This document shows, in pieces, positions 51,517-55,515 of a stretch of 64,000 nt of DNA. The first letter of the stretch is position 1. The number at the start of each line of letters is the position of its first letter. The notes under the pieces were generated by a model. It was not told where the DNA came from. It searched no databases and saw only the letters and a list, made by a program, of their open reading frames with translations. The position numbers and the translations under genes were made by a program. Origin of the DNA: Mucilaginibacter aquaedulcis (GTDB taxonomy: Bacteria > Bacteroidota > Bacteroidia > Sphingobacteriales > Sphingobacteriaceae); contig NZ_JAUFPR010000002.1 of NCBI RefSeq assembly GCF_030409325.1, positions 2,170,001-2,234,000 of the forward strand, written 5' to 3'.

Positions 51517-51548
51517 ACAAGAATTTAAATTGTAGTCCCAACAATCAT

Positions 51549-51646
51549 AAAAGCGTTCCGGCATCTCACCTCCGGAACGCACAGTTACCGATTAAACCAA
51601 ATTTACAGTTATTGATTAAACCAATAACAATCAACTAAATCCAGAT
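51549..51646 (-). ncRNA. Candidate structured small RNA, copy A
   Basis: On minus it reads from the core ATCTGGATTTAGTTGAT (51630-51646) to a terminator hairpin GCGTTCCGG / CCGGAACGC (51572-51580 with 51553-51561) with the loop holding GGTGAGAT and a T4 run. A 24-base tandem duplication (unit starting TTGGTTTAATC) separates the two parts. The same core and hairpin recur at 58586-58664. No gene on minus ends here, so the terminator is an orphan. Confidence 0.5.
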
Positions 51647-51664
51647 CAAGTTCATGTTTGATCT

Positions 51665-52028
51665 TTCTTATCATCTTTCTCAAGGATGATAAGGTTTTAA
51701 ATACTTTATCAGGCTTTATCTTATGTAAGTAGCGGCATCATCCAGCGCCGTTGGAGGTGATTTTATTTTATTGATAAACAAAAGACATTCCTGTTTGTTT
51801 TAAGCAATTTTCTGTTTAAAACCGTTTCAATCAAAGGATTTTACTATGCTTATCGTTATGGTACATTTTATACCTGATAATGACAGTTTAGTGTAACTTA
51901 AAACCTATTTGGGCATCCAAATTAAAAATCATGCGTATTTTAGCAAAAGCAAATCTATCAGCTTCAAGATCGATTTTGTTGTGATAACGCCTTCAATAAC
52001 ATTAAATAATTATAGCTAATTTTAATTC
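51665..52028. other. Intergenic region upstream of the kinase gene
   Basis: Apart from a hairpin CTTATCATC / GATGATAAG at 51667-51693 I see no feature. This stretch must hold the promoter for the kinase-flavoprotein-zinc finger cassette. Confidence 0.5.
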
Positions 52029-53429
52029 ATGCAAACGGTAACTGTATCCTGGCTAAAATCGCTCGAAGTTTTAAATAATGTACCTGATGATCAGTTACAA
52101 TGGCTATTAGATAATAGTAAAGACCAGTTTTTTGAAGAAGGCGAATTTTTAATGCAGCCCGAGGAGCCTATTACCGGGCCTCACATTACGGTTGAGGGCA
52201 GCATGCGTTTTTTTATGATGCAGGGTACCTCCCGCAGAGATTATACCATCATTGGTCCGGGTAACATTACCGGGTATCTCCCCTTTTCAAGAGGTAAAAT
52301 TGCCAAAGGGTATGCTCAGGCCATGACCAAACTGCATATACGCAGCCTTGATACCGGCTTAATACCTGAGATGATCAAAAATCATTATGAACTTACCCAG
52401 GCCCTGGTGAGTATCATGACCACCCGTGTGCGTGACTTTACGGCCCTGCAGCAACAGAATGAAAAAATGATGGCTTTGGGTAAACTATCTGCCGGCCTTG
52501 CACATGAGTTAAATAATCCGGCATCGGCCATTGTTCGTGATTCGTTAACCCTGAAAAAGCACTTATCAGAAGAGCCCGAAAGTATTAAGGCCATATTTTC
52601 GATGAAAATTGAACCCGAAGATGTTTCCGCCATCACCAATACCTTGTTCTCACTCATTGATGCCAAAGACCATACAAGGTTAAGCCTCAAACAACGTACC
52701 CAGCGCGAAGACGAGATCATTGAATGGCTTGATGAACATGAAATTGAAAACAGCTATGATATTGCCGAAAGCTTTGTTGATTTCAATTTCACCATTGAAA
52801 CACTGGAAACGTTTGAAAAATATTCGCCCAATAAAAACCTGACACACATTTTGAATTGGGCAAGCGATATGCTGATCACCGAAAAAATGGTACGCGATAT
52901 TCAGGAATCGGCAAGGCGGATAGCAGAACTGGTAAGCTCTGTTAAAACCTTTACCCATATGGATCGTGCGCAGGATAAGCAATATGCCGATATACATATC
53001 GGTATTCGAAACACCCTTACCATGCTGGGTTATAAAATAAGGAAAGGGAACATTAGCGTTATTGAAGACTTTGATGAAACCCTGCCGGAAGTTAAGGCCT
53101 TGATAGGTGAACTTAACCAGGTATGGACCAACCTGATTGATAATGCCATTGACGCTATGGCTGTAAACGGTAAAGGTACCCTGACTATTAAAACCCGCCG
53201 CGACCGCGAGTTTGTGGAGGTTTTTATAGTTGATGATGGCCCCGGAATTGCCCCGGAAATACAAAGCCTGATATTTGATCCATTTTTTACTACAAAAGAG
53301 ATGGGTAAAGGCACCGGCATGGGCCTTGAGGTTGTGCAACGCATTGTTAAACAGCACCGTGGCTCCATAAAAGTAAAATCAGATCCGGGTCATACCGTGT
53401 TTAGTGTTTGTTTCCTGATTGATGGATAA
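52029..53429 (+). CDS. Histidine kinase with N-terminal cyclic-nucleotide-binding-like domain
   Basis: 466 residues, no membrane segment, so cytoplasmic. Residues about 10-130 look like a CRP/cNMP-binding beta-roll sensor (FFEEGEFLMQPEEPITGPHI and the GPGNITGYLPF turn). A coiled linker leads to the H box MALGKLSAGLAHELNNPASA with His159. The ATPase domain has N box LIDNAIDAM, G1 VDDGPGIAPE, F box DPFFTTKEMGKGTG and MGLEVVQRIV. It autophosphorylates and should pass phosphate to the receiver of the next gene, 52 bases away. The ligand of the sensor is unknown. Confidence 0.92.
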   Translation: MQTVTVSWLKSLEVLNNVPDDQLQWLLDNSKDQFFEEGEFLMQPEEPITGPHITVEGSMRFFMMQGTSRRDYTIIGPGNITGYLPFSRGKIAKGYAQAMTKLHIRSLDTGLIPEMIKNHYELTQALVSIMTTRVRDFTALQQQNEKMMALGKLSAGLAHELNNPASAIVRDSLTLKKHLSEEPESIKAIFSMKIEPEDVSAITNTLFSLIDAKDHTRLSLKQRTQREDEIIEWLDEHEIENSYDIAESFVDFNFTIETLETFEKYSPNKNLTHILNWASDMLITEKMVRDIQESARRIAELVSSVKTFTHMDRAQDKQYADIHIGIRNTLTMLGYKIRKGNISVIEDFDETLPEVKALIGELNQVWTNLIDNAIDAMAVNGKGTLTIKTRRDREFVEVFIVDDGPGIAPEIQSLIFDPFFTTKEMGKGTGMGLEVVQRIVKQHRGSIKVKSDPGHTVFSVCFLIDG

Positions 53430-53481
53430 CGGCAATTTTTGAATAAAATATTAATAATTTTACGTTTAGAAAAAGTCCCCT

Positions 53482-55143
53482 ATGAGCCGCCCAATTATAT
53501 TTTCCATAGATGATGACCCGCAAGTACTGCGGTCCATAAGCCGCGATCTTCGGTCGCAGTATGGTAAAGAGTACAAAATACTGAGCACTACATCGGCAAA
53601 TGAGGCTCTTGAGACCCTTACCGAACTTAAAAACAGTTCGGATGTGATTGCGCTGTTCCTTTGCGATCAGCGCATGCCCGAAATGGAAGGCGTTAAATTT
53701 TTAGAAAAAGCAAAAAAAATATATCCGGATGCCAAGCGCGTGTTACTTACCGCCTACTCCGATACTGAAGCTGCCATAAAAGCCATTAATGATGTACAGC
53801 TTGATTATTATCTCATGAAACCATGGGATCCGCCGGAAGAAAAACTTTTCCCCGTGATAAATGATCTGTTGGAAGATTGGCATAATAATTACGTACCCGA
53901 GTTTGTAGGCATTAAAGTAGTGGGCTACCAGTTTTCGCCGCAATCGCACGTGGTTAAAGATTACCTTGCTGGTAACCTGATCCCTTACAGATGGCTTGAT
54001 GTTGAAAAGAATATTGATGCGGGCAGTTTGCTGGCATTAAATAACCTTACTACAGATTGCTTACCGCTGGTTGTGTTTGAGGATGGCAGCTATTTGGCCA
54101 AACCTACCATACAAGCCATCGCGGCAAAGCTGGATACAAACCCGCAAACGCTTACTGATGTATACGATGTGGTAATTATAGGCGCGGGCCCCGCAGGCCT
54201 TGCTGCCGCGGTTTACGGCGCATCCGAAGGGTTAAAAACATTGCTTATTGAACGTAAGGCACCCGGCGGACAAGCAGGTACCAGTTCACGTATTGAGAAC
54301 TATCTGGGTTTCCCGGCAGGCTTAAGCGGTGCTGACCTAACCAGGCGCGCCATTAGCCAGGCTATGCGCTTGGGCGCCGAGTTTCTATCACCACAATCGG
54401 TAAGTGATATCAGGCAAAAAGACGGTTATAAAACCATTGTGTTGGATGATGGACCCGAAATTATTAGTCGCACAGTGGTAATTACCACCGGTGTCGATTA
54501 CCGTAAACTGGAGGTTAATGGTGTTGAAAATTACACCGGTGCCGGCATATATTATGGTGCTGCCACTACTGAGGCTACCGCATGTACAGGTAAACAGGTA
54601 TACGTTATAGGCGGAGGAAATTCAGCTGGTCAGGCTGCTATGCACCTGTCAAAATTTGCCAAAAATGTATACATCATCATCCGTCGAGATGATCTGGTGG
54701 CTACCATGTCGGCTTATTTGATCAATCAAATTGCCGACAGGCCTAATATTGAGGTTATACCTAATACCGAAATAATTGAGGCCAATGGTACCAACAGCCT
54801 TGAAGAACTTACGCTGATGAACTGTAAAACCAAGGAAACAGTTAAAAAAACAGCCAACGCGCTTTATATTTTTATAGGTGCCAAGCCTTACACCGATTGG
54901 ATAAAGCTTGATATTATAAAAAACAGTAAAGACTTTATTGAAACCGGCCGTGAACTACGCAGTTACGAGGGGTTTGGTAAAATATGGAAACTTAAACGTG
55001 ATCCGTTTTTACTGGAAACAAGCTGCTCGGGTATTTTTGCAGCAGGCGATGTTCGCGCCGGTGCCATGAACCGGGTTGCATCTGCCGTAGGTGAAGGCTC
55101 AATGGCTATCAGTTTTGTACACAAATATTTAGCAGAAGTATAA
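53482..55143 (+). CDS. Response-regulator receiver fused to a thioredoxin-reductase-like flavoprotein lacking redox cysteines
   Basis: 553 residues. Receiver domain 1-135 with the acid pair Asp10-Asp11, phospho-acceptor Asp62 (LFLCDQRMP), Thr90 and Lys113 (YLMKPW). A glutaredoxin-like fold (about 142-222) follows, in which the CxxC position reads SPQS (152-155). The thioredoxin-reductase-like part has FAD motif GAGPAGL (234-240), NADPH motif GGGNSA (377-382) and the closing IFAAGDVRAGAMNRVASAVG. The TrxR disulfide ACATC is replaced by AATTEA (360-365). It can bind FAD and NAD(P)H but cannot do classical disulfide reduction. Phosphorylation may switch the flavin domain (inference). It is the centre of a three-gene cassette. 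Confidence 0.92.
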   Translation: MSRPIIFSIDDDPQVLRSISRDLRSQYGKEYKILSTTSANEALETLTELKNSSDVIALFLCDQRMPEMEGVKFLEKAKKIYPDAKRVLLTAYSDTEAAIKAINDVQLDYYLMKPWDPPEEKLFPVINDLLEDWHNNYVPEFVGIKVVGYQFSPQSHVVKDYLAGNLIPYRWLDVEKNIDAGSLLALNNLTTDCLPLVVFEDGSYLAKPTIQAIAAKLDTNPQTLTDVYDVVIIGAGPAGLAAAVYGASEGLKTLLIERKAPGGQAGTSSRIENYLGFPAGLSGADLTRRAISQAMRLGAEFLSPQSVSDIRQKDGYKTIVLDDGPEIISRTVVITTGVDYRKLEVNGVENYTGAGIYYGAATTEATACTGKQVYVIGGGNSAGQAAMHLSKFAKNVYIIIRRDDLVATMSAYLINQIADRPNIEVIPNTEIIEANGTNSLEELTLMNCKTKETVKKTANALYIFIGAKPYTDWIKLDIIKNSKDFIETGRELRSYEGFGKIWKLKRDPFLLETSCSGIFAAGDVRAGAMNRVASAVGEGSMAISFVHKYLAEV

Positions 55144-55418
55144 TGACACAAAATGAGGAATTATGCCAGCACCTGGCTGGTATCACTGAAGTGAAACTAC
55201 CTGAAGAACGCGTTTGTGAAGAGTGTATGAAGATACATTCATCGTGGGTGCATTTACGTACCTGCCAAACCTGTGGTGTTACACTTTGTTGCGATAGCTC
55301 ACCAAATACGCACATGACCAAGCACTTTAAAGCAACCGGTCATCCTATAGTTATCTCTGCTGAAGAAGGCGAACGCTGGATCTGGTGCTACGTTGACCAG
55401 CAGATGGTAGGTTATTAG
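55143..55418 (+). CDS. Stand-alone UBP-type zinc finger protein
   Basis: 91 residues. The start ATG shares its A with the stop TAA of the flavoprotein gene (TAATG), so translation is coupled. All zinc ligands of the eukaryotic-style ZnF-UBP fold are present: Cys8, His10, Cys25, Cys28, Cys41, Cys44, Cys49, His57, His61 and His67 in the expected order. In eukaryotes this fold binds the C-terminal Gly-Gly of ubiquitin. Bacteria lack ubiquitin, so the partner here is unknown; the C-terminus of the flavoprotein or another protein is possible. No signal peptide. It is the last gene of the cassette. Confidence 0.93.
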   Translation: MTQNEELCQHLAGITEVKLPEERVCEECMKIHSSWVHLRTCQTCGVTLCCDSSPNTHMTKHFKATGHPIVISAEEGERWIWCYVDQQMVGY

Positions 55419-55515
55419 TTTTGAGTGATTAGTTCTCCGAATATTAATCTCCCTCATTTTTTAAATGAGGGAGATTAAATATTTTACTTAAATTATATAT
55501 CTATTTTATCACTAC

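Follow-up and report, generated by a model that had tools for sequence, protein, structure and literature searches.

What might a bacterium do with a zinc finger of the ubiquitin-binding type whose gene lies directly behind those of a sensor kinase and a receiver-bearing flavoprotein? The question is raised by a three-gene cassette on the forward strand of a 64,000-nucleotide stretch of DNA (the window) from the soil bacterium Mucilaginibacter, in which a histidine kinase (HK), a flavoprotein (FP) and a stand-alone zinc finger (ZF) are encoded in that order. We suggest, with a probability of about one half for the model as a whole, that the cassette specifies a dedicated two-component module that is cytosolic, has an enzyme as its output and would serve as a stress-linked redox switch. 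An initial annotation of the same DNA had described a kinase with a cyclic nucleotide monophosphate (cNMP) domain that senses a ligand, a receiver-flavoprotein fusion and a ubiquitin-binding-type zinc finger. The gene unit, the partnership of kinase and receiver, the flavoprotein output and the co-occurrence of the three families have stood, whereas the type of flavoprotein has been corrected, a canonical cyclic nucleotide is unlikely as the ligand, and the zinc finger lacks the Arg for ubiquitin tails.

The three genes form a single unit. The ZF start codon overlaps the FP stop codon by one base (TAATG, position 55143), and this overlap, the 52-base gap between HK and FP and the gene coordinates had all been placed correctly. 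The three families were also found together elsewhere, as the initial annotation had stated, and since they recur jointly in many genera and several phyla their grouping is not due to chance. Gene order varies, from HK-FP-ZF in this genome to ZF-HK-FP in another large family and FP-HK-ZF in operons of Tsukamurella and Streptomyces.

The kinase and its flavoprotein partner

A survey of 395 Bacteroidota genomes, the counts from which ignore shared ancestry, found FP with a receiver (REC) domain in 48 genomes belonging to 29 genera, and these are exactly the 48 genomes that encode an HK of this type. The two genes adjoin on the same strand in 40 of the 48, and HK lies directly upstream of FP at 73 of 80 independently fetched loci (72 by script and one, L120, by inspection); three of the other seven lie at the ends of contigs, and in the four exceptions on full contigs HK is encoded elsewhere in the genome. 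Five genomes with a REC-less FP have no HK of this type, and in several REC-less genomes (L177, L179 and L180) a cNMP-type domain is instead fused directly to FP, an arrangement also present in Rhodococcus, Streptomyces, Rhizobium and others. Whether by fusion or by phosphorelay, the coupling of sensor to flavoprotein thus appears to be maintained, and no other evidence speaks as strongly for signalling from HK to FP. Although the counts ignore ancestry, the distribution of the pair is patchy over many families, and HK and FP are in all likelihood dedicated partners. In Nostoc (L149:4992-9320) and Deinococcus (L150:4995-11566) the gene following FP-HK is labelled “low temperature requirement protein A”, and these records are without ZF.

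The residues expected of such a partnership are in place. HK possesses both an H-box and an ATP-binding catalytic domain, as is characteristic of two-component kinases: HATPase_c is matched at E 1.3e-23, and the catalytic domain resembles those of ZraS and ThkA in a fold search (Z 23). The match to HisKA (E 3.8e-4) is below the cut-off, with the profile aligning over its first 20 positions only; structure prediction places His159 on a long helix. In FP the receiver is recognised by Pfam (Response_reg, E 3.7e-15), and D10-D12, D62, T90 and K113 are invariant in 38 homologues. Phosphotransfer from His159 to Asp62 had been proposed at the outset; both are real codons (CAT and GAT) and invariant in family alignments, and the direction in which we would expect the phosphate to pass is from the kinase to the receiver. 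The same genome encodes a second kinase of this family (G000:C1:32116-33507; L163:6117-7541), 42% identical and with the same GYLPFSR loop in its sensor, which has neither an FP nor a ZF gene nearby; cross-talk with the cassette is possible.

The sensor domain of HK, with a beta-roll predicted at residues 30-107, scores 21.5 bits against PF00027 (E 2.4e-4; gathering score 27.5) and is weakly similar to CRP/FNR chains, while homologous kinases exceed the PF00027 cut-off. These matches, together with two class III cyclase domains encoded in the genome and the involvement of the same gene families, would be consistent with cyclic-nucleotide-dependent redox signalling, in which the CRP-type domain binds cAMP or cGMP, HK controls a redox enzyme and ZF recruits peptides. 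However, the Glu of the phosphate-binding cassette is absent from all 34 HKs aligned, and its Arg is absent from the same 34 and from all 23 members of a broader set that includes fusions of a cyclic nucleotide-binding domain (cNBD) to FP. The phosphate-binding cassette is replaced by a different conserved loop, G-x-L/M-P-F/Y-S-R, in which P, S and R are invariant in the 34 HKs. Because Glu and Arg are missing, canonical cAMP or cGMP binding is unlikely; HK is probably not a canonical cyclic-nucleotide sensor, and we consider cyclic-nucleotide-dependent redox signalling an unlikely account of the cassette. FNR-like sensing through an iron-sulphur cluster or haem was also considered and rejected, as the sensor domain has no conserved Cys and its conserved His residues are merely scattered. 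In our model the CRP-fold sensor would respond to a cytosolic signal, probably one other than a cyclic nucleotide bound in the canonical way.

The output domain is a flavoprotein, as initially annotated, but one related to thioredoxin reductases that has lost its CxxC, and it is preceded by a glutaredoxin-fold domain that had been overlooked. Pyr_redox_2 matches FP at E 3.9e-34, residues 226-552 superpose on 5mh4 with Z 30.5 (root-mean-square deviation 3.4 over 295 residues), and the top solved structural relatives are all thioredoxin reductases, with ferredoxin-NADP reductases also among the structural neighbours. Residues 140-217 have a predicted beta-alpha-beta-alpha-beta-beta-alpha arrangement and a phmmer match of 0.0021 to the mycoredoxin Rv3198A (2lqo). 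For this domain and for the beta-roll of HK the assignment relies on secondary-structure prediction and low sequence similarity, since fold searches with the whole models returned only the reductase part of FP and the kinase part of HK.

Neither of the two CxxC pairs is found in any FP in our alignments of 14 diverse and 38 close sequences. The glutaredoxin-fold motif is replaced by S152-P-Q-S155, with P195 at the cis-Pro position invariant and no Cys at the first position of the CxxC/CxxS site in any aligned FP, and the motif of the reductase domain is replaced by A360-A-T-T363. There is no invariant Cys, Cys368 being common but not universal (34/38). In contrast, GxGxxG, GGGNSA, the thioredoxin reductase fold and an invariant C-terminal region are retained. 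As the FAD and NAD(P)H motifs have been kept, FP should bind both cofactors; as both CxxC sites have been lost throughout the family, it very probably does not work as a thiol-disulfide reductase of the known kind. The public label “thioredoxin-disulfide reductase” is thus probably a misnomer for the whole FP family.

That FP might still be an ordinary thioredoxin reductase placed under the control of phosphorylation is suggested by its best named family (TRX_reduct), by its solved relatives, by the public labels and by the presence of trxA beside two actinobacterial loci. We regard this as highly improbable and already contradicted by the sequence: FP scores 235 bits against NCBIfam TIGR01292 (thioredoxin reductase; cut-off 343), the CxxC is in no FP examined, and the genome has a separate ordinary thioredoxin reductase (L003) with CAVC at the aligned position. 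AhpF is rejected on the same grounds (TIGR03140, 152 bits; cut-off 503). A single-Cys reductase of the YpdA type was likewise set aside, since the position of the Cys in the YpdA glycine-rich motif is occupied by Ala238 in 38/38 FPs.

The family-wide loss of both thiol centres alongside invariant nucleotide-binding motifs and C-terminal region could also be explained if FP were a noncatalytic scaffold, with FAD/NAD(P)H as a ligand reporting redox state and phosphorylation of REC controlling assembly with ZF. Other enzymes of this fold that lack CxxC, namely the ferredoxin-NADP reductases, nevertheless transfer hydride, and Cys368 is nearly conserved; a dead enzyme is therefore an explanation that we doubt. 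In the two-component module that we favour, the phosphorylated receiver would act on a thiol-less former thioredoxin reductase, altering either its conformation or the passage of hydride from NAD(P)H to FAD.

The zinc finger and its candidate clients

ZF is a true zf-UBP domain, as initially annotated, with a Pfam match of 48.7 bits (E 9e-13; cut-off 22.7) and conserved zinc-ligand Cys and His residues; its nearest solved structure is RPA1320 (2ida, E 6e-28), and no PHROG family matches it. The W/Y pocket residues are kept, and the bacterial proteins, 2ida included, share a signature of W35, H37, L38 and R39 (WVHLR) together with CCDSS. The Arg that contacts the ubiquitin tail in human ZnF-UBPs, R221 in USP5 and R1155 in HDAC6, is however S, D or Q in all 18 aligned sequences. 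Reading of a ubiquitin tail by ZF is thus not supported, although some other peptide terminus may be read.

FP is present in 33 of the 36 genomes that encode zf-UBP (Fisher 9e-31, with ancestry ignored). In two Bacteroidota genomes (L181:1923-7074 and L182:1694-6754) the operon takes the form FP-[KefB-type antiporter::ZF]-HK, a fusion that makes the zinc finger a physical part of a cation/proton antiporter, and KefB adjoins ZF in other genomes without FP. Chaperone genes form a second kind of neighbourhood: dnaJ-cbpM-clpB-trxA-ZF-cNBD::FP in Rhodococcus and Streptomyces, ClpB adjoining FP in a member of the same family as the organism of our window, and FP-ZF beside a Clp ATPase, Hsp20 and HdeD in Paraburkholderia. 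KefB, Clp, Hsp20, HdeD and thioredoxin are all among the components of the tLST stress island (PMC8290217). These neighbourhoods are consistent with ZF being a facultative adaptor that would bind a peptide terminus and so dock FP to its clients, the likely ones in relatives being KefB-type K+/H+ antiporters and the Clp/Hsp proteostasis machines; we assign this adaptor role to ZF tentatively, as somewhat short of an even chance.

Several observations weigh against this reading. ZF occurs in just 30 of the 48 genomes with REC-bearing FP, an adjacent ZF is missing at 34 of 80 HK-FP loci, and three genomes have ZF without FP; ZF must therefore be regarded as facultative, not obligatory. Neither an antiporter nor a chaperone adjoins ZF in this genome, the stress-related neighbours being found elsewhere only, and many ZF loci adjoin unrelated metabolic genes. 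By inspection, no tLST-type genes are present among the open reading frames of the window around the cassette, and similar islands surround only distant relatives. The cross-phylum examples, moreover, were drawn solely from a plasmid collection. It may be, then, that HK and FP alone constitute the system, and that ZF, though often found nearby, has a separate function at KefB-type antiporters, as its facultative presence and its occurrence with KefB in the absence of FP would allow. The presence of FP in nearly all ZF genomes, and the organisation of the trio as one operon in both Bacteroidota and Actinomycetota with differing gene orders, make such independence a minority possibility, at perhaps one chance in four, and we retain ZF as a facultative component of the module.

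Further observations were made at individual ZF loci. One genome that lacks both FP and HK has consecutive genes for a KefB-type antiporter, a DsbA/thioredoxin-4 protein and ZF (L164:4377-6724). The thioredoxin beside ZF-cNBD::FP (L148:5528-5980 and L160:3822-4265) resembles Trx2-type thioredoxins in having a zinc-ribbon-like CxxC pair at its N-terminus. Two loci place ZF near genes of formaldehyde detoxification, encoding S-(hydroxymethyl)mycothiol dehydrogenase (L157:8137-9641) and a glutathione-dependent formaldehyde-activating enzyme (L155:3173-5270). A role in phage defence was dropped after the cassette gave no match to PADLOC defence families.

Layout of the locus

The features of the cassette are listed in Table 1. 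The hairpin downstream of ZF has by far the longest stem among terminator-like matches in the region, the total number of which is no higher than in shuffled sequence. A plain sigma-70 scan gave 13 matches, also at the shuffled expectation. Upstream of HK lies a 512-bp non-coding stretch (51517-52028) containing an imperfect inverted repeat (51666-51694), a possible regulatory region.

Table 1. Positions of genes, domains, predicted active residues and the downstream hairpin within the window.
Feature	Position	Strand	Basis
HK, sensor histidine kinase, 466 aa, cytosolic	52029-53429	+	Open reading frame, HATPase_c, fold search
HK residues 30-118, CRP/cNMP-type beta-roll sensor domain, G-Y-L-P-F/Y-S-R loop	52116-52382	+	Predicted secondary structure, weak similarity
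His159 codon CAT, predicted phospho-acceptor, A-H-E-L-N-N-P box	52503-52505	+	Invariant in alignment
HK residues ~184-265, ~80-aa helical insertion separating the DHp helices	52578-52823	+	Model; partial HisKA match; conserved
HK-FP gap, 52 untranslated bases	53430-53481		
FP, receiver / glutaredoxin-fold / thioredoxin-reductase-like flavoprotein, 553 aa	53482-55143	+	Open reading frame, Pfam
FP residues 6-118, receiver domain	53497-53835	+	Pfam, alignment
Asp62 codon GAT, predicted phosphorylation site	53665-53667	+	Invariant 38/38
FP residues 140-217, glutaredoxin/mycoredoxin-fold domain	53899-54132	+	Predicted secondary structure, phmmer
FP residues 226-552, FAD/NAD(P)H-binding thioredoxin-reductase-like domain	54157-55137	+	Pfam, fold search
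Lost thioredoxin reductase CxxC position, A360-A-T-T363	54559-54570	+	Alignment
ZF, stand-alone zf-UBP zinc finger, 91 aa	55143-55418	+	Pfam, conserved zinc-ligand Cys/His
Terminator-like hairpin, 16-nt arms, 100% complementary, T-rich tail	55444-55478	+	Between ZF and convergent gene

Relation to known systems

The cassette is a variant of a predicted kind of system, occurs in many genomes and is not unique to this window. Burroughs, Iyer and Aravind (Mol BioSyst 7:2261, 2011) reportedly predicted a bacterial ZF-UBP in a cyclic-nucleotide-dependent redox signalling system, in which ZF-UBP neighbours cNMP-type domains and thioredoxin-reductase-like proteins; here, in contrast, the binding residues do not support dependence on a cyclic nucleotide, and the exclusive HK-REC pairing, the KefB fusion and the links to chaperones are described in addition. 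Response regulators in which REC is joined to thioredoxin reductase have been listed as “Mycobacterium-like” (Galperin et al. 2018, PMC5847659). They share with FP the fusion of a receiver to a thioredoxin-reductase-like flavoprotein, but that paper names the architecture only, whereas in FP a degenerate glutaredoxin-fold domain lies between the two, the CxxC is lost, and a partner kinase and zinc finger have been identified in addition. The initial annotation knew of no assigned function, which is right as far as experiments go, but these two predictions exist. Among the papers searched none treats this cassette, and we met with no bacterial ZnF-UBP protein whose function had been tested.

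AhpF and TrxB have the fold and the FAD and NAD(P)H motifs of FP, and AhpF also has a thioredoxin-fold domain before its reductase, but FP is without either CxxC and carries an N-terminal receiver. The human ZnF-UBPs of USP5 and HDAC6, like RPA1320, share with ZF the zf-UBP fold, zinc ligands and W/Y pocket residues; the Arg for the ubiquitin tail sets the human domains apart from ZF and its bacterial relatives. The KefB/KefC antiporters (CPA2) associate with soluble NAD(P)H flavoproteins, KefF and KefG. The FP-[KefB::ZF]-HK operons recall this association of a flavoprotein with a CPA2 antiporter, any coupling here being putative, and KefF and KefG are of the quinone-reductase type whereas FP is thioredoxin-reductase-like.

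Carried to its furthest extent, our model would make FP a phosphorylation-gated, thiol-less relative of thioredoxin reductase that switches according to NAD(P)H state and, through its ZnF-UBP adaptor, gates KefB-type antiporters and recruits Clp disaggregases. It would then be ancestral or analogous to ZnF-UBP-based protein-quality control, but without ubiquitin. We put this forward as speculation, with the odds well against it.

The present analysis contributes evidence from residues that speaks against three inherited labels, together with the exclusive pairing with a kinase and the candidate clients. Response regulators with a flavoenzyme output are rare. In family alignments each of the three proteins lacks, family-wide, the residues characteristic of the activity for which it is named, while their partnership is kept across phyla. 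The vague labels “thioredoxin-disulfide reductase”, “cyclic nucleotide-binding” and “ubiquitin-type finger” can accordingly be sharpened, with KefB-type antiporters and ClpB/Hsp proteins as the candidate clients of the system.

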